From the NCBI GenBank assembly GCA_038049695.1, contig CP142461.1, forward strand, positions 27,349,001-27,413,000: a DNA stretch of 64,000 bases, in the 5' to 3' direction. This DNA comes from Cinnamomum chago. Taxonomy: Eukaryota; Streptophyta; Magnoliopsida; Laurales; Lauraceae. Under the pieces are notes generated by a model. The model was not told where the DNA came from. It did not search any database and saw only the letters and a program-made list of their open reading frames with translations. Below, one piece after another: positions 1-58,746 of the stretch (positions are counted from its first letter, which is position 1; the number at the start of each line of letters is the position of its first letter). A program made the position numbers and the translations under genes.

Positions 1-323
1 AGAATCTCTTCAATTGGATTTCGAGGCGTAAGACTAGAGTACGACACTTGAAACCCTATTTCCTATTAAAGCCTGATCCTAGAGTTTTCTAGAAGGAGTA
101 TTTCCACCGAGGGTCGCATGAAACACATAGTAGAGTCAACAGTTTCGCATATATACATTGATTGTGTTTTCGTGCAAAGGTTTCGTACAACGCGCCTGAA
201 GTTCGGGTTTTAGCGTTTTCAGACGTAAAACTTCATGAAGTGTTTACCAAACCCAAGATTCACCCGACACCAGTTTCAAACCGAAAAGAATCTCGAAATA
301 ACCTACAGTGCGCATCTCAGCCC
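1..323 (+). repeat. Satellite monomer m1 (family A)
   Basis: First monomer of the reference unit, 323 bp. It is recognised by tatttcctattaaagcctg, tttccaccgaggg and cgcatatatacattg. The dyad is imperfect here (CCTGAAGTTCGGG). It follows another A monomer (m11), so the m11-m1 boundary is the only A-A junction of the 11-mer. Confidence 0.9.
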
Positions 324-646
324 AGAATCTCTTCAATTGGATTTCGAGGCGTAAGACTAGAGTACGACACTTGAAACCCTTTTTTCTTTTAAAAATGGAT
401 CCCGTAGTTTTCTAGAAGGAGTATTTGGACCAAGAGTCGCATGAAACACATTGTAGAGTCAACAACTTCGTAAAGCTACATTCTTTGAGTTTTCATACAA
501 ACGTTCCGTATGACGCATCCGAAGTTCGACTTTTAGCCTTTTCAGTCACAGAACTCCCTGAAGTGTTCACAAAACCCAAGATTCACCCGAAACCCGTTTT
601 AAAACGAAAAGAATCTCGAAATAACCTACAATGCGCAACTCAGCCC
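324..646 (+). repeat. Satellite monomer m2 (family B)
   Basis: 323 bp. It is recognised by aaaaatggatcccgtag, which contains a BamHI site (GGATCC), and by ggaccaagagtcgc and cacattgtagag. It is present in both the 10-mer and the 11-mer. Confidence 0.9.
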
Positions 647-968
647 CGAATCCTTTCAATTGGATTTCGAGGCGTAAGACTAGAGTACGACACTTGAAAC
701 CTTATTTTCTATTAAAGCTCGATCCTAGAGTTTTCTAGAAGGAGTTTTTGCACCGAGGGTTGCGTGAAACACTTATTATAGTCAACAATTTCGCATAGAT
801 ACATTGATTGTGTTTTCAGGCAAAGGTTTCGTACAACGCGCCCGAAGTTCGGGTTTAGCCTTTTTACACGTAAAACTTCCTAAAGCGTTTACCAAACCCA
901 AGATTCACCCGAAACCCGTTTCCAACCGAAAAGAATGTCGAAATAACCTACAGTGCGCATCCCAGCCC
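647..968 (+). repeat. Satellite monomer m3 (family A), site of the 10-mer/11-mer difference
   Basis: 322 bp; one T is missing in cgggtttagcc. It carries the perfect 13-bp dyad at 841-853, followed by tttttacacgtaaaacttcc. In 10-mers the first part of m3 is kept up to agcctttt, but the following part is replaced, so position ~865 here marks the divergence point. Its end reads cacttaaaaccc rather than the usual cacttgaaaccc. Confidence 0.9.
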
Positions 969-1291
969 AGAATCTCTTCAATTGGATTTCAAGGCGTAAG
1001 ACTAGACTACAACACTTAAAACCCTTTTTTCTTTTAAAACTCGATCCCGGAGGTTTCTAGAAGGAGTATTTGGACCGAGAGTCGCTTGAAACACATAGTT
1101 GAGTCAACAACTTCGTAAAGCTCCATTGATTGAGTTTTCGCACAGAAGTTCCGTACGACTCTTCCGAAGTTCGACCTTTAGCCTTTTTAGTCGCAGAACT
1201 CCCTGAAGTATTTACCAAACCTAAGATTCACCCGAAACCCGTTTCAAACCGAAAAGAATCCCGAAATAACCTACAATGCGCAACTCAGCCC
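969..1291 (+). repeat. Satellite monomer m4 (family B), 11-mer only
   Basis: 323 bp. It is recognised by cccggaggtttctagaagg, cgcttgaaacacatag and gtacgactcttccg. It is absent from 10-mer units. Confidence 0.9.
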
Positions 1292-1614
1292 AGAATCCTT
1301 TCAATTGGATTTCGAGGCGTAAGACTAGAGAACAACACTTGAATCCTTATTTTCTATTAAAGCTCGATCCTGGAGTATTCTAGATGGAGTATTTGCACCG
1401 AGAGTCGAATGAAACACATAGTATAGTCAACAATTTAACATAATTACATTGATTGTGTTTTCGTGCAGAGGTTTCGTAAACCTCGCTCGAAGTTCGGGTT
1501 TTAGCCTTTTCAGACGTAAAACTTGCTGAAGTGTTTACCAAACCCAAGATTCACCCAAAACCCGTTTCAAACCGAAAAGAATATCGAATTAACCAACAAT
1601 GCGCATCTCAGCCC
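1292..1614 (+). repeat. Satellite monomer m5 (family A), 11-mer only except its tail
   Basis: 323 bp. It is recognised by ctggagtattctagatgg, caatttaacataattac and the tail gaatatcgaattaaccaac. The 10-mer lacks the front of m5, but its monomer mX ends with this same tail. Two subtypes exist: gtaaacctcgctcg (U1, U2, U4) and gtacaactcgctcg (U8, U11, U12). U10 is a hybrid. Confidence 0.9.
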
Positions 1615-1938
1615 AGAATCTTTTCAATTGGATTTCGAGGCGTAAGACTAGAGTACGACACTTGAAACCCTTTTTTCTTTTAAAACTCGATCCCGGAGTT
1701 TTCTAGAAGAGGTATTTGGACCGAGAGTCGCAAGAAACACATAGTAGAGTTAACAACTTCGTAAAGCTACAATGATTGAGTTTTCCTACAGAAGTTCCGT
1801 ACGACGCTTCCGAAGTTCGACTTTTTAGCCTTTTCAGTCACAGAACTCCCTGAAGTGTTTACAAAACCCAAGATTCACCCGAAAGCATTTTCAAACTGAA
1901 AAGAATCACGAAATAACCTACAATGCGCAACTCAGCCC
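1615..1938 (+). repeat. Satellite monomer m6 (family B)
   Basis: 324 bp; an extra T is present in cgactttttagcc. It is recognised by ctagaagaggtatttgg and gtcgcaagaaacac. A linked variant (acattgattgag instead of acaatgattgag) occurs in U8, U11, U12 and U14. The LINE interrupts an m6 copy at the right end of the array. Confidence 0.9.
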
Positions 1939-2261
1939 AGAATCATTTCAATTGGATTTCGGGGCGTAAAACTAGAGTACAACACTTGAAACCTTATTTT
2001 TTATTAAAGCTCGATCCTAGAGTTCTCTAAAAGGAGTATTTGCACCGAGGGTCGCATGAAACACATAGTATAGTCAACAATTTCGCATAGATACATTGAT
2101 TGTGTTTTCGCGTAGAGGTTTCGTACAACATGCCCGAAGTTCGGGTTTTAACCTTTTCAGACGAAAAACTTCCTAAAGTGCTTACCAAGCCCAAGATTCA
2201 CCCGAAACCCGTTGCAAACCGAAAAGAATCTCGAAATAACCTACAATGTGCATCCCATCCC
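1939..2261 (+). repeat. Satellite monomer m7 (family A)
   Basis: 323 bp. It is recognised by ggatttcggggcgtaaaac, gagttctctaaaaggag (which loses the XbaI site) and ccgttgcaaaccg. The perfect dyad is at 2133-2145. Confidence 0.9.
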
Positions 2262-2583
2262 AGAATCTCTTCAATCGGATTCCGAGGCGTAAGAGTAAAT
2301 TACGACACTTGAAACCCTTTTTTCTTTTAAAACACGATCGCGGAGTTTTCTAGGAGGCGTATTTGGACCGAGAGTCGCATGAAACACATAGTAGAGTCAA
2401 CAACTTCGTAAAGTTACATTGATTCACTTTTCATATAGAAGTTCCGTACGACGCTTCCGAAATTCGACTTTTTGCCTTTTCAGTCGCAGAACTCCCTGAA
2501 GTGTTTACCAATCTCAAGATTCACCCGAAACCCGTTTCAAACCGAAAATAATCTCGAAATAACCTACATTGCGAATTCAGCCC
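2262..2583 (+). repeat. Satellite monomer m8 (family B), carries the single EcoRI site of the HOR
   Basis: 322 bp. It is recognised by acacgatcgcggag, ttctaggaggcgtatttgg and gattcacttttcatatag. One base is missing in gcgaattcag, which creates GAATTC at 2573-2578. I saw no other EcoRI site in the HOR. Confidence 0.9.
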
Positions 2584-2906
2584 AGAATCTCTTCACTTGG
2601 ATTTCAAGGCGTAAGACTAGAGTACGACACTTCAAACCTTATTTTCTATTAAAGCTCGATCCTAGAGTTTTCTAGAAGGAGTATTTGCACTGAGGGTCGC
2701 ATGAAACACATAGTATAGTCAACAATTTCGCATAGATACATTGATTGTGTTTTCGTGCAGAGGTTTCGTACAACGCGCTCGAAGTTCTAGTTTTAGCCGT
2801 TTCAATCGTAAAACTTCCTACAGTATTTCCCAAACGCACGATTCACCGGAAACCCATTTCAAACCGAAAAGAGTCTCGAAATAACCTATAATGCGCAACG
2901 CAGCCC
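2584..2906 (+). repeat. Satellite monomer m9 (family A, most divergent)
   Basis: 323 bp. It is recognised by gttctagttttagccg and by cccaaacgcacgattcacc. The dyad is destroyed (CTCGAAGTTCTAG). A linked variant, cgcagtccag instead of cgcagcccag, marks U7, U9 and U10. Confidence 0.88.
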
Positions 2907-3230
2907 AGAATCTCTTCAATTGGATTTCGAGGCGTAAGACTAGAGTACGACACTTGAAACCCTTTTTTCTTTTAAAACTCGATCGCGGAGTTTTCTAGAA
3001 GGAGTATTTGGACTGAGGGTCGAATGAAACACATAGTAGAGTCAAAAACTTCGTAAAGCTACATTGATTGAGTTTTCATACAGAAGTTCTGTACGATGCT
3101 TCCGAAGTTCGACTTTTAGCGTTTTCTAGAGGCAGAACTCCCTGAAGTGTTTACCAAACCCAAGATTCACCCGAAACCCGTTTCAAACCGAAATGAATCT
3201 CGAAATAACCTACAATGCGCAACTCAGACC
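2907..3230 (+). repeat. Satellite monomer m10 (family B)
   Basis: 324 bp. It is recognised by gttttctagaggcagaac, a second TCTAGA in the same monomer and the source of the extra base. The position gggtcg(a/c)atg varies between HOR copies and is linked to the K/R change in m11. Confidence 0.9.
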
Positions 3231-3552
3231 ACAATCCTTTCAATAGGATTTCGAGGCGTAAGACTAGAGTACGGCACTTGAAACTTTATTTTCTATTAAA
3301 GCTCGATCCTTGAGTTTTCTAGAAGGAGTATTTGCACCGAGGGTCGTATGAAACATATAGTATAGTGAACAATTTCGCATAGATACATTGATTGTGTTTT
3401 TGTGCAGGGGTTTCGTACAACGCGCCCGAAGTTCGGGTTTTAGCCTTTTCAGACGTAAAACATCCTGAAGTGTTTACCAAACCCAAGATTCACATGAAAC
3501 CCGTTTCAAACCGAAAAGAATCTCGAAATAACCTACAATGCGCATCTCAGCC
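3231..3552 (+). repeat. Satellite monomer m11 (family A)
   Basis: 322 bp; one C is lost in cagccagaatc. It is recognised by gaaactttattttc, agtgaacaatttcgc and gattcacatgaaaccc. The perfect dyad is at 3425-3437. The extra segment of the 10-mer resembles the m11-to-m1 junction. Confidence 0.9.
3425..3437. other. 13-bp perfect dyad CCCGAAGTTCGGG (representative copy)
   Basis: Six bases, a central G, then the six complementary bases. Perfect copies occur in m3 (841-853), m7 (2133-2145), m11 (3425-3437) and in the 10-mer monomers m3* (7945-7957) and mX (8267-8279). B monomers keep only the core CGAAGTTCG. It could bind a dimeric protein or form a small hairpin; both are inference. Confidence 0.7.
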
Positions 3553-6500
3553 AGAATCTCTTCAATTGGATTTCGAGGCGTAAGACTAGAGTACGACACT
3601 TGAAACCCTATTTCCTATTAAAGCCTGATCCTAGAGTTTTCTAGAAGGAGTATTTCCACCGAGGGTCGCATGAAACACATAGTAGAGTCAACAGTTTCGC
3701 ATATATACATTGATTGTGTTTTCGTGCAAAGGTTTCGTACAACGCGCCTGAAGTTCGGGTTTTAGCGTTTTCAGACGTAAAACTTCATGAAGTGTTTACC
3801 AAACCCAAGATTCACCCGACACCAGTTTCAAACCGAAAAGAATCTCGAAATAACCTACAGTGCGCATCTCAGCCCAGAATCTCTTCAATTGGATTTCGAG
3901 GCGTAAGACTAGAGTACGACACTTGAAACCCTTTTTTCTTTTAAAAATGGATCCCGTAGTTTTCTAGAAGGAGTATTTGGACCAAGAGTCGCATGAAACA
4001 CATTGTAGAGTCAACAACTTCGTAAAGCTACATTCTTTGAGTTTTCATACAAACGTTCCGTATGACGCATCCGAAGTTCGACTTTTAGCCTTTTCAGTCA
4101 CAGAACTCCCTGAAGTGTTCACAAAACCCAAGATTCACCCGAAACCCGTTTTAAAACGAAAAGAATCTCGAAATAACCTACAATGCGCAACTCAGCCCCG
4201 AATCCTTTCAATTGGATTTCGAGGCGTAAGACTAGAGTACGACACTTGAAACCTTATTTTCTATTAAAGCTCGATCCTAGAGTTTTCTAGAAGGAGTTTT
4301 TGCACCGAGGGTTGCGTGAAACACTTATTATAGTCAACAATTTCGCATAGATACATTGATTGTGTTTTCAGGCAAAGGTTTCGTACAACGCGCCCGAAGT
4401 TCGGGTTTAGCCCTTTTACACGTAAAACTTCCTAAAGCGTTTACCAAACCCAAGATTCACCCGAAACCCGTTTCCAACCGAAAAGAATGTCGAAATAACC
4501 TACAGTGCGCATCCCAGCCCAGAATCTCTTCAATTGGATTTCAAGGCGTAAGACTAGACTACAACACTTAAAACCCTTTTTTCTTTTAAAACTCGATCCC
4601 GGAGGTTTCTAGAAGGAGTATTTGGACCGAGAGTCGCTTGAAACACATAGTTGAGTCAACAACTTCGTAAAGCTCCATTGATTGAGTTTTCGCACAGAAG
4701 TTCCGTACGACTCTTCCGAAGTTCGACCTTTAGCCTTTTTAGTCGCAGAACTCCCTGAAGTATTTACCAAACCTAAGATTCACCCGAAACCCGTTTCAAA
4801 CCGAAAAGAATCCCGAAATAACCTACAATGCGCAACTCAGCCCAGAATCCTTTCAATTGGATTTCGAGGCGTAAGACTAGAGAACAACACTTGAATCCTT
4901 ATTTTCTATTAAAGCTCGATCCTGGAGTATTCTAGATGGAGTATTTGCACCGAGAGTCGAATGAAACACATAGTATAGTCAACAATTTAACATAATTACA
5001 TTGATTGTGTTTTCGTGCAGAGGTTTCGTAAACCTCGCTCGAAGTTCGGGTTTTAGCCTTTTCAGACGTAAAACTTGCTGAAGTGTTTACCAAACCCAAG
5101 ATTCACCCAAAACCCGTTTCAAACCGAAAAGAATATCGAATTAACCAACAATGCGCATCTCAGCCCAGAATCTTTTCAATTGGATTTCGAGGCGTAAGAC
5201 TAGAGTACGACACTTGAAACCCTTTTTTCTTTTAAAACTCGATCCCGGAGTTTTCTAGAAGAGGTATTTGGACCGAGAGTCGCAAGAAACACATAGTAGA
5301 GTTAACAACTTCGTAAAGCTACAATGATTGAGTTTTCCTACAGAAGTTCCGTACGACGCTTCCGAAGTTCGACTTTTTAGCCTTTTCAGTCACAGAACTC
5401 CCTGAAGTGTTTACAAAACCCAAGATTCACCCGAAAGCATTTTCAAACTGAAAAGAATCACGAAATAACCTACAATGCGCAACTCAGCCCAGAATCATTT
5501 CAATTGGATTTCGGGGCGTAAAACTAGAGTACAACACTTGAAACCTTATTTTTTATTAAAGCTCGATCCTAGAGTTCTCTAAAAGGAGTATTTGCACCGA
5601 GGGTCGCATGAAACACATAGTATAGTCAACAATTTCGCATAGATACATTGATTGTGTTTTCGCGTAGAGGTTTCGTACAACATGCCCGAAGTTCGGGTTT
5701 TAACCTTTTCAGACGAAAAACTTCCTAAAGTGCTTACCAAGCCCAAGATTCACCCGAAACCCGTTGCAAACCGAAAAGAATCTCGAAATAACCTACAATG
5801 TGCATCCCATCCCAGAATCTCTTCAATCGGATTCCGAGGCGTAAGAGTAAATTACGACACTTGAAACCCTTTTTTCTTTTAAAACACGATCGCGGAGTTT
5901 TCTAGGAGGCGTATTTGGACCGAGAGTCGCATGAAACACATAGTAGAGTCAACAACTTCGTAAAGTTACATTGATTCACTTTTCATATAGAAGTTCCGTA
6001 CGACGCTTCCGAAATTCGACTTTTTGCCTTTTCAGTCGCAGAACTCCCTGAAGTGTTTACCAATCTCAAGATTCACCCGAAACCCGTTTCAAACCGAAAA
6101 TAATCTCGAAATAACCTACATTGCGAATTCAGCCCAGAATCTCTTCACTTGGATTTCAAGGCGTAAGACTAGAGTACGACACTTCAAACCTTATTTTCTA
6201 TTAAAGCTCGATCCTAGAGTTTTCTAGAAGGAGTATTTGCACTGAGGGTCGCATGAAACACATAGTATAGTCAACAATTTCGCATAGATACATTGATTGT
6301 GTTTTCGTGCAGAGGTTTCGTACAACGCGCTCGAAGTTCTAGTTTTAGCCGTTTCAATCGTAAAACTTCCTACAGTATTTCCCAAACGCACGATTCACCG
6401 GAAACCCATTTCAAACCGAAAAGAGTCTCGAAATAACCTATAATGCGCAACGCAGCCCAGAATCTCTTCAATTGGATTTCGAGGCGTAAGACTAGAGTAC

Positions 6501-7104
6501 GACACTTGAAACCCTTTTTTCTTTTAAAACTCGATCGCGGAGTTTTCTAGAAGGAGTATTTGGACTGAGGGTCGCATGAAACACATAGTAGAGTCAAAAA
6601 CTTCGTAAAGCTACATTGATTGAGTTTTCATACAGAAGTTCTGTACGATGCTTCCGAAGTTCGACTTTTAGCGTTTTCTAGAGGCAGAACTCCCTGAAGT
6701 GTTTACCAAACCCAAGATTCACCCGAAACCCGTTTCAAACCGAAATGAATCTCGAAATAACCTACAATGCGCAACTCAGACCACAATCCTTTCAATAGGA
6801 TTTCGAGGCGTAAGACTAGAGTACGGCACTTGAAACTTTATTTTCTATTAAAGCTCGATCCTTGAGTTTTCTAGAAGGAGTATTTGCACCGAGGGTCGTA
6901 TGAAACATATAGTATAGTGAACAATTTCGCATAGATACATTGATTGTGTTTTCGTGCAGGGGTTTCGTACAACGCGCCCGAAGTTCGGGTTTTAGCCTTT
7001 TCAGACGTAAGACATCCTGAAGTGTTTACCAAACCCAAGATTCACATGAAACCCGTTTCAAACCGAAAAGAATCTCGAAATAACCTACAATGCGCATCTC
7101 AGCC
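3553..7104 (+). repeat. HOR unit U2, 11-mer
   Basis: Same monomer order as U1, subtype I. It carries haplotype R: gggtcgcatg in m10 and cgtaagacatcc in m11. A private C in m3 gives agcccttttacacg near 4410. By eye I noticed only about four differences from U1. Confidence 0.95.
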
Positions 7105-7750
7105 AGAATCTCTTCAATTGGATTTCGAGGCGTAAGACTAGAGTACGACACTTGAAACCCTATTTCCTATTAAAGCCTGATCCTAGAGTTTTCTAGAAGG
7201 AGTATTTCCACCGAGGGTCGCATGAAACACATAGTAGAGTCAACAGTTTCGCATATATACATTGATTGTGTTTTCGTGCAAAGGTTTCGTACAACGCGCC
7301 TGAAGTTCGGGTTTTAGCGTTTTCAGACGTAAAACTTCATGAAGTGTTTACCAAACCCAAGATTCACCCGACACCAGTTTCAAACCGAAAAGAATCTCGA
7401 AATAACCTACAGTGCGCATCTCAGCCCAGAATCTCTTCAATTGGATTTCGAGGCGTAAGACTAGAGTACGACACTTGAAACCCTTTTTTCTTTTAAAAAT
7501 GGATCCCGTAGTTTTCTAGAAGGAGTATTTGGACCAAGAGTCGCATGAAACACATTGTAGAGTCAACAACTTCGTAAAGCTACATTCTTTGAGTTTTCAT
7601 ACAAACGTTCCGTATGACGCATCCGAAGTTCGACTTTTAGCCTTTTCAGTCACAGAACTCCCTGAAGTGTTCACAAAACCCAAGATTCACCCGAAACCCG
7701 TTTTAAAACGAAAAGAATCTCGAAATAACCTACAATGCGCAACTCAGCCC

Positions 7751-8072
7751 CGAATCCTTTCAATTGGATTTCGAGGCGTAAGACTAGAGTACGACACTTG
7801 AAACCTTATTTTCTATTAAAGCTCGATCCTAGAGTTTTCTAGAAGGAGTTTTTGCACCGAGGGTTGCGTGAAACACTTATTATAGTCAACAATTTCGCAT
7901 AGATACATTGATTGTGTTTTCAGGCAAAGGTTTCGTACAACGCGCCCGAAGTTCGGGTTTAGCCTTTTCAGACGTAAAACTTCCTGAAGTGTTTACCAAA
8001 CCCAAGATTCACATGTAACCCGTTTCAAACCGAAAAGAATCTCGAAATAACCTACAATGCACAACTCAGTCC
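7751..8072 (+). repeat. Chimeric satellite monomer m3* of the 10-mer
   Basis: 322 bp. The front is m3, including the missing T in cgggtttagcc. After agcctttt (7961-7968) it switches to cagacgtaaaacttcctg and then cacatgtaacccg, which resembles m11 (cacatgaaacccg). Its end, cacaactcagtccagaatcc, is its own. Confidence 0.9.
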
Positions 8073-8395
8073 AGAATCCTTTCAATTGGATTTCGAGGCG
8101 TAAGACTAGAGTACGACACTTGAAATCTTATTTCCTATTAAAGCCCGATCCTAGAGTTTTCTAGAAGGAGTATTTTTACCGAGGGTCGTATGAAACACAT
8201 AGTATAGTCAACAATTTCGCTTAGATACAATGATTGTGTTTTCGTGCAGAGGTTTCGTACAACGCACCCGAAGTTCGGGTTTTAGCCTTTTTACACGTAA
8301 AACTTCCTAAAGCGTTTACCAAACCCAAGATTCACCCGAAACCCGTTTCAAACCGAAAAGAATATCGAATTAACCAACAATGCGCATCTCAGCCC
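8073..8395 (+). repeat. Chimeric satellite monomer mX of the 10-mer
   Basis: 323 bp, and a three-part mosaic. The front resembles m1 and m11 (tatttcctattaaagcccg, gggtcgtatgaaac). From ~8288 it carries the m3 tail (tttttacacgtaaaacttcc, ctaaagcg). The end is the m5 tail (gaatatcgaattaaccaac). The perfect dyad lies at 8267-8279, just before the switch to the m3 tail. Confidence 0.9.
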
Positions 8396-10333
8396 AGAAT
8401 CTTTTCAATTGGATTTCGAGGCGTAAGACTAGAGTACGACACTTGAAACCCTTTTTTCTTTTAAAACTCGATCCCGGAGTTTTCTAGAAGAGGTATTTGG
8501 ACCGAGAGTCGCAAGAAACACATAGTAGAGTTAACAACTTCGTAAAGCTACAATGATTGAGTTTTCCTACAGAAGTTCCGTACGACGCTTCCGAAGTTCG
8601 ACTTTTTAGCCTTTTCAGTCACAGAACTCCCTGAAGTGTTTACAAAACCCAAGATTCACCCGAAAGCATTTTCAAACTGAAAAGAATCACGAAATAACCT
8701 ACAATGCGCAACTCAGCCCAGAATCATTTCAATTGGATTTCGGGGCGTAAAACTAGAGTACAACACTTGAAACCTTATTTTTTATTAAAGCTCGATCCTA
8801 GAGTTCTCTAAAAGGAGTATTTGCACCGAGGGTCGCATGAAACACATAGTATAGTCAACAATTTCGCATAGATACATTGATTGTGTTTTCGCGTAGAGGT
8901 TTCGTACAACATGCCCGAAGTTCGGGTTTTAACCTTTTCAGACGAAAAACTTCCTAAAGTGCTTACCAAGCCCAAGATTCACCCGAAACCCGTTGCAAAC
9001 CGAAAAGAATCTCGAAATAACCTACAATGTGCATCCCATCCCAGAATCTCTTCAATCGGATTCCGAGGCGTAAGAGTAAATTACGACACTTGAAACCCTT
9101 TTTTCTTTTAAAACACGATCGCGGAGTTTTCTAGGAGGCGTATTTGGACCGAGAGTCGCATGAAACACATAGTAGAGTCAACAACTTCGTAAAGTTACAT
9201 TGATTCACTTTTCATATAGAAGTTCCGTACGACGCTTCCGAAATTCGACTTTTTGCCTTTTCAGTCGCAGAACTCCCTGAAGTGTTTACCAATCTCAAGA
9301 TTCACCCGAAACCCGTTTCAAACCGAAAATAATCTCGAAATAACCTACATTGCGAATTCAGCCCAGAATCTCTTCACTTGGATTTCAAGGCGTAAGACTA
9401 GAGTACGACACTTCAAACCTTATTTTCTATTAAAGCTCGATCCTAGAGTTTTCTAGAAGGAGTATTTGCACTGAGGGTCGCATGAAACACATAGTATAGT
9501 CAACAATTTCGCATAGATACATTGATTGTGTTTTCGTGCAGAGGTTTCGTACAACGCGCTCGAAGTTCTAGTTTTAGCCGTTTCAATCGTAAAACTTCCT
9601 ACAGTATTTCCCAAACGCACGATTCACCGGAAACCCATTTCAAACCGAAAAGAGTCTCGAAATAACCTATAATGCGCAACGCAGCCCAGAATCTCTTCAA
9701 TTGGATTTCGAGGCGTAAGACTAGAGTACGACACTTGAAACCCTTTTTTCTTTTAAAACTCGATCGCGGAGTTTTCTAGAAGGAGTATTTGGACTGAGGG
9801 TCGAATGAAACACATAGTAGAGTCAAAAACTTCGTAAAGCTACATTGATTGAGTTTTCATACAGAAGTTCTGTACGATGCTTCCGAAGTTCGACTTTTAG
9901 CGTTTTCTAGAGGCAGAACTCCCTGAAGTGTTTACCAAACCCAAGATTCACCCGAAACCCGTTTCAAACCGAAATGAATCTCGAAATAACCTACAATGCG
10001 CAACTCAGACCACAATCCTTTCAATAGGATTTCGAGGCGTAAGACTAGAGTACGGCACTTGAAACTTTATTTTCTATTAAAGCTCGATCCTTGAGTTTTC
10101 TAGAAGGAGTATTTTCACCGAGGGTCGTATGAAACATATAGTATAGTGAACAATTTCGCATAGATACATTGATTGTGTTTTCGTGCAGGGGTTTCGTACA
10201 ACGCGCCCGAAGTTCGGGTTTTAGCCTTTTCAGACGTAAAACATCCTGAAGTGTTTACCAAACCCAAGATTCACATGAAACCCGTTTCAAACCGAAAAGA
10301 ATCTCGAAATAACCTACAATGCGCATCTCAGCC

Positions 10334-13300
10334 AGAATCTCTTCAATTGGATTTCGAGGCGTAAGACTAGAGTACGACACTTGAAACCCTATTTCCTATT
10401 AAAGCCTGATCCTAGAGTTTTCTAGAAGGAGTATTTCCACCGAGGGTCGCATGAAACACATAGTAGAGTCAACAGTTTCGCATATATACATTGATTGTGT
10501 TTTCGTGCAAAGGTTTCGTACAACGCGCCTGAAGTTCGGGTTTTAGCGTTTTCAGACGTAAAACTTCATGAAGTGTTTACCAAACCCAAGATTCACCCGA
10601 CACCAGTTTCAAACCGAAAAGAATCTCGAAATAACCTACAGTGCGCATCTCAGCCCAGAATCTCTTCAATTGGATTTCGAGGCGTAAGACTAGAGTACGA
10701 CACTTGAAACCCTTTTTTCTTTTAAAAATGGATCCCGTAGTTTTCTAGAAGGAGTATTTGGACCAAGAGTCGCATGAAACACATTGTAGAGTCAACAACT
10801 TCGTAAAGCTACATTCTTTGAGTTTTCATACAAACGTTCCGTATGACGCATCCGAAGTTCGACTTTTAGCCTTTTCAGTCACAGAACTCCCTGAAGTGTT
10901 CACAAAACCCAAGATTCACCCGAAACCCGTTTTAAAACGAAAAGAATCTCGAAATAACCTACAATGCGCAACTCAGCCCCGAATCCTTTCAATTGGATTT
11001 CGAGGCGTAAGACTAGAGTACGACACTTGAAACCTTATTTTCTATTAAAGCTCGATCCTAGAGTTTTCTAGAAGGAGTTTTTGCACCGAGGGTTGCGTGA
11101 AACACTTATTATAGTCAACAATTTCGCATAGATACATTGATTGTGTTTTCAGGCAAAGGTTTCGTACAACGCGCCCGAAGTTCGGGTTTAGCCTTTTTAC
11201 ACGTAAAACTTCCTAAAGCGTTTACCAAACCCAAGATTCACCCGAAACCCGTTTCCAACCGAAAAGAATGTCGAAATAACCTACAGTGCGCATCCCAGCC
11301 CAGAATCTCTTCAATTGGATTTCAAGGCGTAAGACTAGACTACAACACTTAAAACCCTTTTTTCTTTTAAAACTCGATCCCGGAGGTTTCTAGAAGGAGT
11401 ATTTGGACCGAGAGTCGCTTGAAACACATAGTTGAGTCAACAACTTCGTAAAGCTCCATTGATTGAGTTTTCGCACAGAAGTTCCGTACGACTCTTCCGA
11501 AGTTCGACCTTTAGCCTTTTTAGTCGCAGAACTCCCTGAAGTATTTACCAAACCTAAGATTCACCCGAAACCCGTTTCAAACCGAAAAGAATCCCGAAAT
11601 AACCTACAATGCGCAACTCAGCCCAGAATCCTTTCAATTGGATTTCGAGGCGTAAGACTAGAGAACAACACTTGAATCCTTATTTTCTATTAAAGCTCGA
11701 TCCTGGAGTATTCTAGATGGAGTATTTGCACCGAGAGTCGAATGAAACACATAGTATAGTCAACAATTTAACATAATTACATTGATTGTGTTTTCGTGCA
11801 GAGGTTTCGTAAACCTCGCTCGAAGTTCGGGTTTTAGCCTTTTCAGACGTAAAACTTGCTGAAGTGTTTACCAAACCCAAGATTCACCCAAAACCCGTTT
11901 CAAACCGAAAAGAATATCGAATTAACCAACAATGCGCATCTCAGCCCAGAATCTTTTCAATTGGATTTCGAGGCGTAAGACTAGAGTACGACACTTGAAA
12001 CCCTTTTTTCTTTTAAAACTCGATCCCGGAGTTTTCTAGAAGAGGTATTTGGACCGAGAGTCGCAAGAAACACATAGTAGAGTTAACAACTTCGTAAAGC
12101 TACAATGATTGAGTTTTCCTACAGAAGTTCCGTACGACGCTTCCGAAGTTCGACTTTTTAGCCTTTTCAGTCACAGAACTCCCTGAAGTGTTTACAAAAC
12201 CCAAGATTCACCCGAAAGCATTTTCAAACTGAAAAGAATCACGAAATAACCTACAATGCGCAACTCAGCCCAGAATCATTTCAATTGGATTTCGGGGCGT
12301 AAAACTAGAGTACAACACTTGAAACCTTATTTTTTATTAAAGCTCGATCCTAGAGTTCTCTAAAAGGAGTATTTGCACCGAGGGTCGCATGAAACACATA
12401 GTATAGTCAACAATTTCGCATAGATACATTGATTGTGTTTTCGCGTAGAGGTTTCGTACAACATGCCCGAAGTTCGGGTTTTAACCTTTTCAGACGAAAA
12501 ACTTCCTAAAGTGCTTACCAAGCCCAAGATTCACCCGAAACCCGTTGCAAACCGAAAAGAATCTCGAAATAACCTACAATGTGCATCCCATCCCAGAATC
12601 TCTTCAATCGGATTCCGAGGCGTAAGAGTAAATTACGACACTTGAAACCCTTTTTTCTTTTAAAACACGATCGCGGAGTTTTCTAGGAGGCGTATTTGGA
12701 CCGAGAGTCGCATGAAACACATAGTAGAGTCAACAACTTCGTAAAGTTACATTGATTCACTTTTCATATAGAAGTTCCGTACGACGCTTCCGAAATTCGA
12801 CTTTTTGCCTTTTCAGTCGCAGAACTCCCTGAAGTGTTTACCAATCTCAAGATTCACCCGAAACCCGTTTCAAACCGAAAATAATCTCGAAATAACCTAC
12901 ATTGCGAATTCAGCCCAGAATCTCTTCACTTGGATTTCAAGGCGTAAGACTAGAGTACGACACTTCAAACCTTATTTTCTATTAAAGCTCGATCCTAGAG
13001 TTTTCTAGAAGGAGTATTTGCACTGAGGGTCGCATGAAACACATAGTATAGTCAACAATTTCGCATAGATACATTGATTGTGTTTTCGTGCAGAGGTTTC
13101 GTACAACGCGCTCGAAGTTCTAGTTTTAGCCGTTTCAATCGTAAAACTTCCTACAGTATTTCCCAAACGCACGATTCACCGGAAACCCATTTCAAACCGA
13201 AAAGAGTCTCGAAATAACCTATAATGCGCAACGCAGCCCAGAATCTCTTCAATTGGATTTCGAGGCGTAAGACTAGAGTACGACACTTGAAACCCTTTTT

Positions 13301-13885
13301 TCTTTTAAAACTCGATCGCGGAGTTTTCTAGAAGGAGTATTTGGACTGAGGGTCGCATGAAACACATAGTAGAGTCAAAAACTTCGTAAAGCTACATTGA
13401 TTGAGTTTTCATACAGAAGTTCTGTACGATGCTTCCGAAGTTCGACTTTTAGCGTTTTCTAGAGGCAGAACTCCCTGAAGTGTTTACCAAACCCAAGATT
13501 CACCCGAAACCCGTTTCAAACCGAAATGAATCTCGAAATAACCTACAATGCGCAACTCAGACCACAATCCTTTCAATAGGATTTCGAGGCGTAAGACTAG
13601 AGTACGGCACTTGAAACTTTATTTTCTATTAAAGCTCGATCCTTGAGTTTTCTAGAAGGAGTATTTGCACCGAGGGTCGTATGAAACATATAGTATAGTG
13701 AACAATTTCGCATAGATACATTGATTGTGTTTTCGTGCAGGGGTTTCGTACAACGCGCCCGAAGTTCGGGTTTTAGCCTTTTCAGACGTAAGACATCCTG
13801 AAGTGTTTACCAAACCCAAGATTCACATGAAACCCGTTTCAAACCGAAAAGAATCTCGAAATAACCTACAATGCGCATCTCAGCC
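10334..13885 (+). repeat. HOR unit U4, 11-mer
   Basis: Subtype I 11-mer (ttcaaggcg in m3; gtaaacctcgctcg in m5) with haplotype R in m10-m11. It is the last subtype I unit before the array switches to subtype II. Confidence 0.94.
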
Positions 13886-16800
13886 AGAATCTCTTCAATT
13901 GGATTTCGAGGCGTAAGACTAGAGTACGACACTTGAAACCCTATTTCCTATTAAAGCCTGATCCTAGAGTTTTCTAGAAGGAGTATTTCCACCGAGGGTC
14001 GCATGAAACACATAGTAGAGTCAACAGTTTCGCATATATACATTGATTGTGTTTTCGTGCAAAGGTTTCGTACAACGCGCCTGAAGTTCGGGTTTTAGCG
14101 TTTTCAGACGTAAAACTTCATGAAGTGTTTACCAAACCCAAGATTCACCCGACACCAGTTTCAAACCGAAAAGAATCTCGAAATAACCTACAGTGCGCAT
14201 CTCAGCCCAGAATCTCTTCAATTGGATTTCGAGGCGTAAGACTAGAGTACGACACTTGAAACCCTTTTTTCTTTTAAAAATGGATCCCGTAGTTTTCTAG
14301 AAGGAGTATTTGGACCAAGAGTCGCATGAAACACATTGTAGAGTCAACAACTTCGTAAAGCTACATTCTTTGAGTTTTCATACAAACGTTCCGTATGACG
14401 CATCCGAAGTTCGACTTTTAGCCTTTTCAGTCACAGAACTCCCTGAAGTGTTCACAAAACCCAAGATTCACCCGAAACCCGTTTTAAAACGAAAAGAATC
14501 TCGAAATAACCTACAATGCGCAACTCAGCCCCGAATCCTTTCAATTGGATTTCGAGGCGTAAGACTAGAGTACGACACTTGAAACCTTATTTTCTATTAA
14601 AGCTCGATCCTAGAGTTTTCTAGAAGGAGTTTTTGCACCGAGGGTTGCGTGAAACACTTATTATAGTCAACAATTTCGCATAGATACATTGATTGTGTTT
14701 TCAGGCAAAGGTTTCGTACAACGCGCCCGAAGTTCGGGTTTAGCCTTTTCAGACGTAAAACTTCCTGAAGTGTTTACCAAACCCAAGATTCACATGTAAC
14801 CCGTTTCAAACCGAAAAGAATCTCGAAATAACCTACAATGCACAACTCAGTCCAGAATCCTTTCAATTGGATTTCGAGGCGTAAGACTAGAGTACGACAC
14901 TTGAAATCTTATTTCCTATTAAAGCCCGATCCTAGAGTTTTCTAGAAGGAGTATTTTTACCGAGGGTCGTATGAAACACATAGTATAGTCAACAATTTCG
15001 CTTAGATACAATGATTGTGTTTTCGTGCAGAGGTTTCGTACAACGCACCCGAAGTTCGGGTTTTAGCCTTTTTACACGTAAAACTTCCTAAAGCGTTTAC
15101 CAAACCCAAGATTCACCCGAAACCCGTTTCAAACCGAAAAGAATATCGAATTAACCAACAATGCGCATCTCAGCCCAGAATCTTTTCAATTGGATTTCGA
15201 GGCGTAAGACTAGAGTACGACACTTGAAACCCTTTTTTCTTTTAAAACTCGATCCCGGAGTTTTCTAGAAGAGGTATTTGGACCGAGAGTCGCAAGAAAC
15301 ACATAGTAGAGTTAACAACTTCGTAAAGCTACAATGATTGAGTTTTCCTACAGAAGTTCCGTACGACGCTTCCGAAGTTCGACTTTTTAGCCTTTTCAGT
15401 CACAGAACTCCCTGAAGTGTTTACAAAACCCAAGATTCACCCGAAAGCATTTTCAAACTGAAAAGAATCACGAAATAACCTACAATGCGCAACTCAGCCC
15501 AGAATCATTTCAATTGGATTTCGGGGCGTAAAACTAGAGTACAACACTTGAAACCTTATTTTTTATTAAAGCTCGATCCTAGAGTTCTCTAAAAGGAGTA
15601 TTTGCACCGAGGGTCGCATGAAACACATAGTATAGTCAACAATTTCGCATAGATACATTGATTGTGTTTTCGCGTAGAGGTTTCGTACAACATGCCCGAA
15701 GTTCGGGTTTTAACCTTTTCAGACGAAAAACTTCCTAAAGTGCTTACCAAGCCCAAGATTCACCCGAAACCCGTTGCAAACCGAAAAGAATCTCGAAATA
15801 ACCTACAATGTGCATCCCATCCCAGAATCTCTTCAATCGGATTCCGAGGCGTAAGAGTAAATTACGACACTTGAAACCCTTTTTTCTTTTAAAACACGAT
15901 CGCGGAGTTTTCTAGGAGGCGTATTTGGACCGAGAGTCGCATGAAACACATAGTAGAGTCAACAACTTCGTAAAGTTACATTGATTCACTTTTCATATAG
16001 AAGTTCCGTACGACGCTTCCGAAATTCGACTTTTTGCCTTTTCAGTCGCAGAACTCCCTGAAGTGTTTACCAATCTCAAGATTCACCCGAAACCCGTTTC
16101 AAACCGAAAATAATCTCGAAATAACCTACATTGCGAATTCAGCCCAGAATCTCTTCACTTGGATTTCAAGGCGTAAGACTAGAGTACGACACTTCAAACC
16201 TTATTTTCTATTAAAGCTCGATCCTAGAGTTTTCTAGAAGGAGTATTTGCACTGAGGGTCGCATGAAACACATAGTATAGTCAACAATTTCGCATAGATA
16301 CATTGATTGTGTTTTCGTGCAGAGGTTTCGTACAACGCGCTCGAAGTTCTAGTTTTAGCCGTTTCAATCGTAAAACTTCCTACAGTATTTCCCAAACGCA
16401 CGATTCACCGGAAACCCATTTCAAACCGAAAAGAGTCTCGAAATAACCTATAATGCGCAACGCAGCCCAGAATCTCTTCAATTGGATTTCGAGGCGTAAG
16501 ACTAGAGTACGACACTTGAAACCCTTTTTTCTTTTAAAACTCGATCGCGGAGTTTTCTAGAAGGAGTATTTGGACTGAGGGTCGCATGAAACACATAGTA
16601 GAGTCAAAAACTTCGTAAAGCTACATTGATTGAGTTTTCATACAGAAGTTCTGTACGATGCTTCCGAAGTTCGACTTTTAGCGTTTTCTAGAGGCAGAAC
16701 TCCCTGAAGTGTTTACCAAACCCAAGATTCACCCGAAACCCGTTTCAAACCGAAATGAATCTCGAAATAACCTACAATGCGCAACTCAGACCACAATCCT

Positions 16801-17114
16801 TTCAATAGGATTTCGAGGCGTAAGACTAGAGTACGGCACTTGAAACTTTATTTTCTATTAAATCTCGATCCTTGAGTTTTCTAGAAGGAGTATTTGCACC
16901 GAGGGTCGTATGAAACATATAGTATAGTGAACAATTTCGCATAGATACATTGATTGTGTTTTCGTGCAGGGGTTTCGTACAACGCGCCCGAAGTTCGGGT
17001 TTTAGCCTTTTCAGACGTAAGACATCCTGAAGTGTTTACCAAACCCAAGATTCACATGAAACCCGTTTCAAACCGAAAAGAATCTCGAAATAACCTACAA
17101 TGCGCATCTCAGCC
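13886..17114 (+). repeat. HOR unit U5, 10-mer
   Basis: 10-mer with haplotype R. m11 carries ttaaatctcgatcc (~16860) instead of ttaaagctcgatcc, a variant shared with U7, U9 and U10. Confidence 0.94.
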
Positions 17115-20100
17115 AGAATCTCTTCAATTGGATTTCGAGGCGTAAGACTAGAGTACGACACTTGAAACCCTATTTCCTATTAAAGCCTGATCCTAGAGTT
17201 TTCTAGAAGGAGTATTTCCACCGAGGGTCGCATGAAACACATAGTAGAGTCAACAGTTTCGCATATATACATTGATTGTGTTTTCGTGCAAAGGTTTCGT
17301 ACAACGCGCCTGAAGTTCGGGTTTTAGCGTTTTCAGACGTAAAACTTCATGAAGTGTTTACCAAACCCAAGATTCACCCGACACCAGTTTCAAACCGAAA
17401 AGAATCTCGAAATAACCTACAGTGCGCATCTCAGCCCAGAATCTCTTCAATTGGATTTCGAGGCGTAAGACTAGAGTACGACACTTGAAACCCTTTTTTC
17501 TTTTAAAAATGGATCCCGTAGTTTTCTAGAAGGAGTATTTGGACCAAGAGTCGCATGAAACACATTGTAGAGTCAACAACTTCGTAAAGCTACATTCTTT
17601 GAGTTTTCATACAAACGTTCCGTATGACGCATCCGAAGTTCGACTTTTAGCCTTTTCAGTCACAGAACTCCCAGAAGTGTTCACAAAACCCAAGATTCAC
17701 CCGAAACCCGTTTTAAAACGAAAAGAATCTCGAAATAACCTACAATGCGCAACTCAGCCCCGAATCCTTTCAATTGGATTTCGAGGCGTAAGACTAGAGT
17801 ACGACACTTGAAACCTTATTTTCTATTAAAGCTCGATCCTAGAGTTTTCTAGAAGGAGTTTTTGCACCGAGGGTTGCGTGAAACACTTATTATAGTCAAC
17901 AATTTCGCATAGATACATTGATTGTGTTTTCAGGCAAAGGTTTCGTACAACGCGCCCGAAGTTCGGGTTTAGCCTTTTCAGACGTAAAACTTCCTGAAGT
18001 GTTTACCAAACCCAAGATTCACATGTAACCCGTTTCAAACCGAAAAGAATCTCGAAATAACCTACAATGCACAACTCAGTCCAGAATCCTTTCAATTGGA
18101 TTTCGAGGCGTAAGACTAGAGTACGACACTTGAAATCTTATTTCCTATTAAAGCCCGATCCTAGAGTTTTCTAGAAGGAGTATTTTTACCGAGGGTCGTA
18201 TGAAACACATAGTATAGTCAACAATTTCGCTTAGATACAATGATTGTGTTTTCGTGCAGAGGTTTCGTACAACGCACCCGAAGTTCGGGTTTTAGCCTTT
18301 TTACACGTAAAACTTCCTAAAGCGTTTACCAAACCCAAGATTCACCCGAAACCCGTTTCAAACCGAAAAGAATATCGAATTAACCAACAATGCGCATCTC
18401 AGCCCAGAATCTTTTCAATTGGATTTCGAGGCGTAAGACTAGAGTACGACACTTGAAACCCTTTTTTCTTTTAAAACTCGATCCCGGAGTTTTCTAGAAG
18501 AGGTATTTGGACCGAGAGTCGCAAGAAACACATAGTAGAGTTAACAACTTCGTAAAGCTACAATGATTGAGTTTTCCTACAGAAGTTCCGTACGACGCTT
18601 CCGAAGTTCGACTTTTTAGCCTTTTCAGTCACAGAACTCCCTGAAGTGTTTACAAAACCCAAGATTCACCCGAAAGCATTTTCAAACTGAAAAGAATCAC
18701 GAAATAACCTACAATGCGCAACTCAGCCCAGAATCATTTCAATTGGATTTCGGGGCGTAAAACTAGAGTACAACACTTGAAACCTTATTTTTTATTAAAG
18801 CTCGATCCTAGAGTTCTCTAAAAGGAGTATTTGCACCGAGGGTCGCATGAAACACATAGTATAGTCAACAATTTCGCATAGATACATTGATTGTGTTTTC
18901 GCGTAGAGGTTTCGTACAACATGCCCGAAGTTCGGGTTTTAACCTTTTCAGACGAAAAACTTCCTAAAGTGCTTACCAAGCCCAAGATTCACCCGAAACC
19001 CGTTGCAAACCGAAAAGAATCTCGAAATAACCTACAATGTGCATCCCATCCCAGAATCTCTTCAATCGGATTCCGAGGCGTAAGAGTAAATTACGACACT
19101 TGAAACCCTTTTTTCTTTTAAAACACGATCGCGGAGTTTTCTAGGAGGCGTATTTGGACCGAGAGTCGCATGAAACACATAGTAGAGTCAACAACTTCGT
19201 AAAGTTACATTGATTCACTTTTCATATAGAAGTTCCGTACGACGCTTCCGAAATTCGACTTTTTGCCTTTTCAGTCGCAGAACTCCCTGAAGTGTTTACC
19301 AATCTCAAGATTCACCCGAAACCCGTTTCAAACCGAAAATAATCTCGAAATAACCTACATTGCGAATTCAGCCCAGAATCTCTTCACTTGGATTTCAAGG
19401 CGTAAGACTAGAGTACGACACTTCAAACCTTATTTTCTATTAAAGCTCGATCCTAGAGTTTTCTAGAAGGAGTATTTGCACTGAGGGTCGCATGAAACAC
19501 ATAGTATAGTCAACAATTTCGCATAGATACATTGATTGTGTTTTCGTGCAGAGGTTTCGTACAACGCGCTCGAAGTTCTAGTTTTAGCCGTTTCAATCGT
19601 AAAACTTCCTACAGTATTTCCCAAACGCACGATTCACCGGAAACCCATTTCAAACCGAAAAGAGTCTCGAAATAACCTATAATGCGCAACGCAGCCCAGA
19701 ATCTCTTCAATTGGATTTCGAGGCGTAAGACTAGAGTACGACACTTGAAACCCTTTTTTCTTTTAAAACTCGATCGCGGAGTTTTCTAGAAGGAGTATTT
19801 GGACTGAGGGTCGCATGAAACACATAGTAGAGTCAAAAACTTCGTAAAGCTACATTGATTGAGTTTTCATACAGAAGTTCTGTACGATGCTTCCGAAGTT
19901 CGACTTTTAGCGTTTTCTAGAGGCAGAACTCCCTGAAGTGTTTACCAAACCCAAGATTCACCCGAAACCCGTTTCAAACCGAAATGAATCTCGAAATAAC
20001 CTACAATGCGCAACTCAGACCACAATCCTTTCAATAGGATTTCGAGGCGTAAGACTAGAGTACGGCACTTGAAACTTTATTTTCTATTAAAGCTCGATCC

Positions 20101-20343
20101 TTGAGTTTTCTAGAAGGAGTATTTGCACCGAGGGTCGTATGAAACATATAGTATAGTGAACAATTTCGCATAGATACATTGATTGTGTTTTCGTGCAGGG
20201 GTTTCGTACAACGCGCCCGAAGTTCGGGTTTTAGCCTTTTCAGACGTAAGACATCCTGAAGTGTTTACCAAACCCAAGATTCACATGAAACCCGTTTCAA
20301 ACCGAAAAGAATCTCGAAATAACCTACAATGCGCATCTCAGCC
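17115..20343 (+). repeat. HOR unit U6, 10-mer
   Basis: 10-mer with haplotype R. A private change in m2 gives actcccagaagtg instead of actccctgaagtg (~17670). It lacks the ttaaatctcg variant of both neighbours. Confidence 0.94.
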
Positions 20344-23300
20344 AGAATCTCTTCAATTGGATTTCGAGGCGTAAGACTAGAGTACGACACTTGAAACCCT
20401 ATTTCCTATTAAAGCCTGATCCTAGAGTTTTCTAGAAGGAGTATTTCCACCGAGGGTCGCATGAAACACATAGTAGAGTCAACAGTTTCGCATATATACA
20501 TTGATTGTGTTTTCGTGCAAAGGTTTCGTACAACGCGCCTGAAGTTCGGGTTTTAGCGTTTTCAGACGTAAAACTTCATGAAGTGTTTACCAAACCCAAG
20601 ATTCACCCGACACCAGTTTCAAACCGAAAAGAATCTCGAAATAACCTACAGTGCGCATCTCAGCCCAGAATCTCTTCAATTGGATTTCGAGGCGTAAGAC
20701 TAGAGTACGACACTTGAAACCCTTTTTTCTTTTAAAAATGGATCCCGTAGTTTTCTAGAAGGAGTATTTGGACCAAGAGTCGCATGAAACACATTGTAGA
20801 GTCAACAACTTCGTAAAGCTACATTCTTTGAGTTTTCATACAAACGTTCCGTATGACGCATCCGAAGTTCGACTTTTAGCCTTTTCAGTCACAGAACTCC
20901 CTGAAGTGTTCACAAAACCCAAGATTCACCCGAAACCCGTTTTAAAACGAAAAGAATCTCGAAATAACCTACAATGCGCAACTCAGCCCCGAATCCTTTC
21001 AATTGGATTTCGAGGCGTAAGACTAGAGTACGACACTTGAAACCTTATTTTCTATTAAAGCTCGATCCTAGAGTTTTCTAGAAGGAGTTTTTGCACCGAG
21101 GGTTGCGTGAAACACTTATTATAGTCAACAATTTCGCATAGATACATTGATTGTGTTTTCAGGCAAAGGTTTCGTACAACGCGCCCGAAGTTCGGGTTTA
21201 GCCTTTTCAGACGTAAAACTTCCTGAAGTGTTTACCAAACCCAAGATTCACATGTAACCCGTTTCAAACCGAAAAGAATCTCGAAATAACCTACAATGCA
21301 CAACTCAGTCCAGAATCCTTTCAATTGGATTTCGAGGCGTAAGACTAGAGTACGACACTTGAAATCTTATTTCCTATTAAAGCCCGATCCTAGAGTTTTC
21401 TAGAAGGAGTATTTTTACCGAGGGTCGTATGAAACACATAGTATAGTCAACAATTTCGCTTAGATACAATGATTGTGTTTTCGTGCAGAGGTTTCGTACA
21501 ACGCACCCGAAGTTCGGGTTTTAGCCTTTTTACACGTAAAACTTCCTAAAGCGTTTACCAAACCCAAGATTCACCCGAAACCCGTTTCAAACCGAAAAGA
21601 ATATCGAATTAACCAACAATGCGCATCTCAGCCCAGAATCTTTTCAATTGGATTTCGAGGCGTAAGACTAGAGTACGACACTTGAAACCCTTTTTTCTTT
21701 TAAAACTCGATCCCGGAGTTTTCTAGAAGAGGTATTTGGACCGAGAGTCGCAAGAAACACATAGTAGAGTTAACAACTTCGTAAAGCTACAATGATTGAG
21801 TTTTCCTACAGAAGTTCCGTACGACGCTTCCGAAGTTCGACTTTTTAGCCTTTTCAGTCACAGAACTCCCTGAAGTGTTTACAAAACCCAAGATTCACCC
21901 GAAAGCATTTTCAAACTGAAAAGAATCACGAAATAACCTACAATGCGCAACTCAGCCCAGAATCATTTCAATTGGATTTCGGGGCGTAAAACTAGAGTAC
22001 AACACTTGAAACCTTATTTTTTATTAAAGCTCGATCCTAGAGTTCTCTAAAAGGAGTATTTGCACCGAGGGTCGCATGAAACACATAGTATAGTCAACAA
22101 TTTCGCATAGATACATTGATTGTGTTTTCGCGTAGAGGTTTCGTACAACATGCCCGAAGTTCGGGTTTTAACCTTTTCAGACGAAAAACTTCCTAAAGTG
22201 CTTACCAAGCCCAAGATTCACCCGAAACCCGTTGCAAACCGAAAAGAATCTCGAAATAACCTACAATGTGCATCCCATCCCAGAATCTCTTCAATCGGAT
22301 TCCGAGGCGTAAGAGTAAATTACGACACTTGAAACCCTTTTTTCTTTTAAAACACGATCGCGGAGTTTTCTAGGAGGCGTATTTGGACCGAGAGTCGCAT
22401 GAAACACATAGTAGAGTCAACAACTTCGTAAAGTTACATTGATTCACTTTTCATATAGAAGTTCCGTACGACGCTTCCGAAATTCGACTTTTTGCCTTTT
22501 CAGTCGCAGAACTCCCTGAAGTGTTTACCAATCTCAAGATTCACCCGAAACCCGTTTCAAACCGAAAATAATCTCGAAATAACCTACATTGCGAATTCAG
22601 CCCAGAATCTCTTCACTTGGATTTCAAGGCGTAAGACTAGAGTACGACACTTCAAACCTTATTTTCTATTAAAGCTCGATCCTAGAGTTTTCTAGAAGGA
22701 GTATTTGCACTGAGGGTCGCATGAAACACATAGTATAGTCAACAATTTCGCATAGATACATTGATTGTGTTTTCGTGCAGAGGTTTCGTACAACGCGCTC
22801 GAAGTTCTAGTTTTAGCCGTTTCAATCGTAAAACTTCCTACAGTATTTCCCAAACGCACGATTCACCGGAAACCCATTTCAAACCGAAAAGAGTCTCGAA
22901 ATAACCTATAATGCGCAACGCAGTCCAGAATCTCTTCAATTGGATTTCGAGGCGTAAGACTAGAGTACGACACTTGAAACCCTTTTTTCTTTTAAAACTC
23001 GATCGCGGAGTTTTCTAGAAGGAGTATTTGGACTGAGGGTCGCATGAAACACATAGTAGAGTCAAAAACTTCGTAAAGCTACATTGATTGAGTTTTCATA
23101 CAGAAGTTCTGTACGATGCTTCCGAAGTTCGACTTTTAGCGTTTTCTAGAGGCAGAACTCCCTGAAGTGTTTACCAAACCCAAGATTCACCCGAAACCCG
23201 TTTCAAACCGAAATGAATCTCGAAATAACCTACAATGCGCAACTCAGACCACAATCCTTTCAATAGGATTTCGAGGCGTAAGACTAGAGTACGGCACTTG

Positions 23301-23572
23301 AAACTTTATTTTCTATTAAATCTCGATCCTTGAGTTTTCTAGAAGGAGTATTTGCACCGAGGGTCGTATGAAACATATAGTATAGTGAACAATTTCGCAT
23401 AGATACATTGATTGTGTTTTCGTGCAGGGGTTTCGTACAACGCGCCCGAAGTTCGGGTTTTAGCCTTTTCAGACGTAAGACATCCTGAAGTGTTTACCAA
23501 ACCCAAGATTCACATGAAACCCGTTTCAAACCGAAAAGAATCTCGAAATAACCTACAATGCGCATCTCAGCC
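20344..23572 (+). repeat. HOR unit U7, 10-mer
   Basis: 10-mer, haplotype R. It carries cgcagtccag in m9 (~22921) and ttaaatctcg in m11 (~23325). It is followed by gtaagagtagagtacgaccc at the start of U8. The same three linked variants recur in U9/U10 and at the U10/U11 boundary. Confidence 0.94.
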
Positions 23573-30100: not shown

Positions 30101-30353
30101 ATCTCGATCCTTGAGTTTTCTAGAAGGAGTATTTGCACCGAGGGTCGTATGAAACATATAGTATAGTGAACAATTTCGCATAGATACATTGATTGTGTTT
30201 TCGTGCAGGGGTTTCGTACAACGCGCCCGAAGTTCGGGTTTTAGCCTTTTCAGACGTAAGACATCCTGAAGTGTTTACCAAACCCAAGATTCACATGAAA
30301 CCCGTTTCAAACCGAAAAGAATCTCGAAATAACCTACAATGCGCATCTCAGCC
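27125..30353 (+). repeat. HOR unit U9, 10-mer
   Basis: 10-mer, haplotype R, with cgcagtccag in m9 and ttaaatctcg in m11, as in U7. U7+U8 and U9+U10 are both 10+11 pairs of 6781 bp. Confidence 0.94.
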
Positions 30354-58696: not shown

Positions 58697-58746
58697 CCTC
58701 TTCCCTCTCTGGCGATTTTCTTCCTCTTCCTGGTTGGCGGCTCATC
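58686..58746 (+). promoter_or_regulatory. Pyrimidine-rich leader before ORF1 (possible internal promoter/5' UTR)
   Basis: The tract ttctctcctcttccctctct, and later ttcttcctcttcc, resembles the pyrimidine patches common near plant transcription starts. LINEs of this type need an internal promoter near their 5' end. I see no TATA box. The transcription start cannot be placed from sequence, so the regulatory role is inference. Confidence 0.4.

Follow-up and report, generated by a model that had tools for sequence, protein, structure and literature searches.

Structural variants (StVs) of higher-order repeats (HORs), that is, deleted derivatives of a parent HOR, are a kind known from human alpha satellite, where descriptions include a 13-mer of the D17Z1 16-mer and forms ranging from 16- to 12-mer (PMC6471113). 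Sister HORs and HOR haplotype blocks beside a main array are described for human sequences of the D17Z1-B type (PMC9549924), and gene conversion between centromeric repeats has been reported from maize (PMC2834710). The array presented here, in which two unit forms alternate within 64 kb, is a case of an HOR structural variant. A literature search by monomer sequence did not find the satellite in print; it was not among the matches listed for 323-bp centromeric satellites, and nothing useful on plant HOR variants appeared among the matches listed for that subject.

Unit forms and retroelement of the window

The window, the whole 64-kb stretch of DNA that was analysed, is C11:27349001-27413000, where C11 denotes contig CP142461.1 in a 1.06-Gb genome of 14 contigs. 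A satellite with a period of 323 bp spans positions 1-58509 (TRF) and is followed by a LINE. Cutting the window at a conserved anchor yielded 181 monomers of 322-324 bp, 35 of them distinct, that fall into 13 types (a-m). These types are 80-95% identical to one another and are assembled into near-identical units (0.14-0.21% divergent over shared segments within the block), which is the organization of an HOR. Seventeen HORs are complete, seven 11-mers (3552 bp) and ten 10-mers (3229 bp), and the 18th unit is a 10-mer cut by the retroelement; their order is 11, 11, 10, 11, 10, 10, 10, 11, 10, 11, 11, 11, then five 10-mers and the cut one. The 11-mer reads abcdefghijk and the 10-mer ablmfghijk, with lm in place of cde. 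Types a, c, e, g, i, k, l and m (A types) alternate with b, d, f, h and j (B types), and the alternation is broken by A-A junctions at k-a in both forms and at l-m in the 10-mer only. The principal features, all on the forward strand, are the following, with M denoting the fourth monomer of a 12-mer described below:

1..58505, forward: 323-bp satellite array of 18 HOR units (TRF and decomposition)
10..3561, forward: example 11-mer, a b c d e f g h i j k, 3552 bp
656..977, forward: monomer c, a fusion of l front and M tail with the switch within 854-864
978..1623, forward: monomers d and e of the 11-mers; d and the front of e are missing from 10-mers
7114..10342, forward: example 10-mer, a b l m f g h i j k, 3229 bp
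7760..8081, forward: monomer l, the same as c to 7968, then a k-like tail where segment Y starts
7969..8291, forward: segment Y, the l tail plus the m front, about one monomer
8082..8404, forward: monomer m, M front and middle with an e tail, the switch within 8314-8349
30363..33914, forward: 11-mer unit 9, whose e has a c/M-like patch in columns 186-233
44248..47476, forward: 10-mer unit 13, whose m is e-like from column 211

The first-pass annotation, in which c, d and e were called m3, m4 and m5 and the k-a junction m11-m1, had described how the 10-mer differs from the 11-mer, and that observation is confirmed: one insertion (+1) and one deletion (-2) separate the forms, Y being extra and two monomers fewer being present. 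As claimed, m3 is intact to 7968 in the 10-mer, since l matches c up to that position (column 210). Of the limits given for Y (7969-8289) the start holds, and the end falls two bases further on, at 8291, in a run of T. The reported likeness of Y to the m11-m1 junction is borne out by a comparison with 11 candidates, in which k-a is closest with 21 differing columns, j-k follows with 28 and g-h is worst with 59. A recent copy of window sequence was considered as the source of Y and rejected, because even k-a, the nearest in-register segment, differs at those 21 columns. The resumption of m3 after Y is seen at the 10-mer that had been cited but not in unit 13. There, at 8082-8404, m matches c over columns 200-269 and e from column 234, being c-identical to at least 8313 and e-identical from at most 8350, and the loss of m4 and the m5 front from the 10-mer was described correctly, cde being replaced by lm with e sequence from column 234. 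Chance can be excluded for the structure of l because one single sequence recurs in 11 of 11 window copies.

The LINE lies in the satellite, occupying 58506-64000 of the window and the first 748 bp to its right, and it has a poly-A end. One ORF, of 601 aa, contains DUF4283 and another, of at least 1150 aa, contains Exo_endo_phos, RVT_1 and zf-RVT, domains that we take to be plant-like; the 5' end of the LINE carries 9.9 copies of a 19-bp repeat. The left flank is an f front and the right flank an h tail, with the f tail, g and the h front missing across the element, and these flanks do not match those expected after simple insertion. Right of the LINE the satellite resumes with i j k, followed by 22 monomers that have 12-34 differences from the nearest type (at least 20 in 18 of them). 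The young homogeneous block, at the right side of the HOR array, adjoins diverged repeats.

Twelve-monomer units on the contig

The array extends over about 25.4-27.4 Mb of the 56.6-Mb contig. Going by size and structure it may be a centromere, an extent of this kind only suggesting such a role. The window array belongs to the span of the 10/11-mer block, which begins at about C11:27.297 Mb. To derive both forms, the first-pass annotation had proposed an unseen 12-mer of about 3875 bp with the order m1, m2, m3 front, Y, m3 tail, m4 to m11; a chimeric 12-mer built from window monomers has a length of 3875 bp. No 12-mer was found inside the 64-kb window by decomposition. The sequence read beyond it, about 219 kb of C11 (out of some 1.9 Mb of array outside the window) and 10 kb right of the window, contains 13 complete 12-mers of the proposed order (3870-3876 bp), four at C11:26.78-26.80 Mb, six at C11:27.23-27.29 Mb and three at C11:25.47-25.51 Mb. 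The ancestor is unseen, as had been stated, within the window, but not on the contig, where the type still forms array stretches. An HOR of about 3875 bp with both Y and m4-m5, for which a search of the rest of the genome had been recommended, is present on C11, and the thought that there might be no 12-mer anywhere is contradicted by these units outside the window.

The agreement extends to the sequence of the fourth monomer. At C11:26.78-26.80 Mb the regular unit is a b l M d e f g h i j k, with four of four complete units at 3875 bp, and in five of five copies M is one base apart from the predicted chimera (window m front plus c tail), compared with 12-24 differences for six wrong chimeras, eight for whole m and 17 for whole c. 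The predicted kind of fourth monomer occurs in 11 of the 13 12-mers, whose identity to the predicted unit is 98.5-99.0%. In the remaining two, at 25.47-25.51 Mb, the fourth monomer has an e-type tail and d starts with f-type bases; they are 98.5% identical to a unit with window m as fourth monomer and look as if they had exchanged sequence with a 10-mer-type unit. A c-d-e query gave 40 scored full matches, eight in the block, 31 at C11:26.55-26.86 Mb (97% identity) and one at 27.253 Mb. Along one chosen run, C11:26.693-26.735 Mb, the 12 starts (26692683-26735309) have ten spacings of 3875 and one of 3876.

Other unit variants occur in the loci read. Eight units interspersed among 12-mers at C11:27248576-27292501 are 11-mers of another kind, a b l (M/d) e f g h i j k, which equal the window 11-mer in monomer number, but by another deletion. 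Seven units at C11:25.67-25.71 Mb are 10-mers unlike those of the window, a b l M d e f i j k, in which g and h have been lost, and 10-monomer units are suggested to run on to about 25.89 Mb because c/M-tail places there are spaced about 3230 bp. Three 12-monomer units with a different order, a b l m j M d e f i j k, lie in that same 25.67-25.71 Mb. At C11:25.476-25.501 Mb there are five 6-mer units (a b l m j k), and single 13-, 15- and 18-monomer units were also encountered. Change of unit length is frequent in the parts read. At C11:25476378 a 10-mer-type l m f has its M/e switch at 214-227 and not at 233-268, and so may have arisen independently. Genome-wide, 7461 forward places and one reverse place match a 35-base stretch conserved in the satellite; those listed, about the first 100, comprise one on C2 (the reverse one) and others on C8 from 31.36 Mb on, so that at least one other contig has its own array of the satellite.

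Derivation of the two forms

Very probably the 12-mer is ancestral, and the 11-mer and 10-mer are two in-register deletions of it, co-amplified in a young block. It is seen directly that the 12-mer exists, that both junctions are chimeric, that the c junction stays within the block and that flanking sequence is shared. The ancestor would be the 3875-bp unit a b l M d e f g h i j k, persisting in stretches of the C11 array, and the deletions would have arisen at the right side of the HOR array by recombination of mispaired similar monomers, through unequal crossover or an equivalent intrastrand or repair event; we infer both the type of event and the order of the two deletions. A first deletion would have joined l to M within an 11-bp identical tract, with one monomer lost, to give c and the 11-mer; a second would have joined M to e within a 36-bp identical tract, with two monomers lost, to give m and the 10-mer. 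Both forms would next have been amplified side by side in one young block, swapping sequence. The lengths (3875 bp against 3552 and 3229 bp) correspond to in-register loss of one and two whole monomers, and the junction monomers are chimeric, c being l/M with its switch in a tract of 11 bp (only the tenth longest of 28, which counts against this history) and m being M/e with its switch in one of 36 bp (longest of 27). The first-pass annotation had also derived the 11-mer from the 12-mer by a one-monomer loss and the 10-mer by a two-monomer loss, which agrees with these fusions. The parent HOR occurs in the same array, in the form of the 13 complete 12-mers, and the direct parent of the block is not among the units read; no 12-mer with the private changes of the block was found in these loci, which hold only relatives of its seed 12-mer.

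Which form is derived can be approached through the frequencies of the junctions. With block copies included, the c/M tail has 461 exact places genome-wide and the l/Y junction 516, and the approximately 100 first places listed for each are all on C11. The l/M fusion that defines c has eight exact places genome-wide, all within 91 kb (C11:27296566-27387333), corresponding to seven 11-mers and an odd 4-monomer unit at the left border of the block; one more c, in window unit 1, has a change inside the l/M pattern and is outside the eight. For the m/e pattern there are 10 places, all in the window, one being the e of unit 9, and 15 10-mers immediately left of the window have a change inside the pattern. 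The front of c differs from block l fronts by a mean of 0.24 differences per 208 columns and from outer l by 2.94. It is in this light that the alternative of the first-pass annotation, insertion of Y into m3 in the 10-mer lineage only, is to be judged. It would start from an 11-mer ancestor and take Y from another array or a one-monomer circle. On window data alone it costs an equal number of events, and re-entry in the same register is what a one-monomer circle would give, but the l/Y junction is abundant while the uninterrupted m3 is the rare form, none of its eight exact places lying beyond the block and its left border, and Y, d and e stand together in 12-mers of three stretches up to 1.8 Mb apart. 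The alternative is rejected on account of the 12-mers with Y outside the block, and it is the least probable of the histories considered.

The 12-mers could instead be secondary, rebuilt by crossover of a 10-mer (in m) with an 11-mer (in c), as a crossover in columns 200-233 would yield exactly l - M - d. Column 184 bears on this reading. It is A in 26 of 26 block m, and outside the block G in 27 of 27 M and in 20 of 21 m-type monomers; of the 13 12-mers, 12 have G, and the remaining one, at C11:25494757, whose fourth monomer ends in an e-type tail, has A like block m. The G outside the block argues that the 12-mers were not rebuilt from block 10-mers. In addition, the four sampled stretches are 0.56-2.11% apart, against 0.14-0.21% within the block, and c is found in the block only. 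A secondary origin is rejected as highly improbable, with the A at C11:25494757 left as one observation in its favour. Still less credible, though ahead of the insertion of Y, is a single conversion-like replacement of the c tail, d and the e front by Y, with the c-like stretch of m as a later patch. Unit 13, where Y is followed directly by e-type sequence, and the patch in e of unit 9 would fit such a replacement, but what looks c-like in m is simply M sequence native to the 12-mer, and unit 13 itself looks like a later exchange (253G, f148T, g323T).

Deletion from an ancestral 12-mer was further compared with the relationships among whole units. The alignment took in monomers of 311-334 bp that had under 25 differences from a type (232 distinct, of 839 in total), and a unit tree was built from the segments shared by those units that contain a, b, l or c, f, i, j and k, 67 in number and 52 of them distinct. 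The block contributes 33 units (25 10-mers and eight 11-mers, 21 of the 33 distinct), which form one group with a support of 0.998, and the block plus the 12-mer at C11:27244701 have a support of 0.873, both supports being read from an unrooted tree without an outgroup. Neither 10-mers nor 11-mers group by themselves, and across 2792 columns no fixed difference separates the 25 10-mers from the eight 11-mers (mean divergence 0.20%). The block is 1.0-1.7% divergent from outer units over shared segments and has 10 private sites. The tree position of the 12-mer at 27244701 may reflect exchange, as it is a mosaic, identical to the block in h, i, j and k and with 1-7 differences in a, b, f and g.

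Whether the 12-mer has a sub-structure built from a 3-mer and a 9-mer, with M resembling a and l resembling k, was also considered; pairwise counts point that way (l-k 24, M-a 25). The monomer phylogeny including Y that the first-pass annotation had proposed was run on one 12-mer and returned weak groupings only, with a weak M-a group and no l-k group (support labels being shifted by re-rooting), and the sub-structure is not supported by it.

The two forms appear to exchange sequence, as indicated by patches in units 9, 12 and 13 and by the flanking variants j107 and k221, which are found in all four combinations with the two forms. The 253G of unit 13 recurs in e of units 10 and 11, and its f148T in units 7, 10 and 11, while g323T has been kept, as in units 12-16; with two variants in common with 11-mers and one with its neighbours, unit 13 resembles the product of a later exchange between the forms. 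In unit 12 (starting at 41019) a short e-like patch in m has e-type bases at 226 and 229, and the patch of unit 9 is an exchange between the forms or within the unit. A single breakpoint for m is not proven, as unit 13 lacks a resumed m3 and the patches of units 9 and 12 reveal short conversions within that interval.

It is doubtful that the 36-bp tract, which lies at monomer coordinates 233-268 and is unchanged between monomers that have diverged elsewhere, is a preferred recombination site driving the change of unit length. The idea arises because the M x e fusion and the M x d fusion at C11:27.25-27.29 Mb both switch inside it, the M/d 11-mer being M-like at 228 and 232 and d-like from 269. 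Against this, neither pair of monomers shares a longer identical tract in the main 12-mer, such that tract length alone could explain its use, and the l x M fusion lies elsewhere.

Comparison with known systems

An ancestor inferred from two descendants in 64 kb was then found on the same contig with the expected order, length and chimera, and while the kind of event is itself ordinary, this makes for an unusually clean test case. The exact fusion tracts (11 and 36 bp) let one ask how much identity such exchange needs. As in the maize gene conversion described in PMC2834710, the patches of units 9, 12 and 13 are short and keep the register, though here they are a pattern in one assembly only. 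As in the D17Z1-B type (PMC9549924), a compact block that has private changes and a unit structure of its own lies beside a larger related HOR array; unlike the sister HORs described there (about 3-7%), it is 1.0-1.7% from the outer units and is closer to a haplotype block. The StVs of human alpha satellite described in PMC6471113 and the forms of this array are both in-register whole-monomer deletions of a parent HOR. The monomer differs, being 323 bp with A/B alternation here and about 171 bp in primate alpha satellite, so the likeness is one of behaviour only, and the two forms of the block come from two different deletions, with the parent not found within the block. Within those terms, this HOR array changes its unit length as human alpha satellite does, by in-register monomer loss followed by local amplification.
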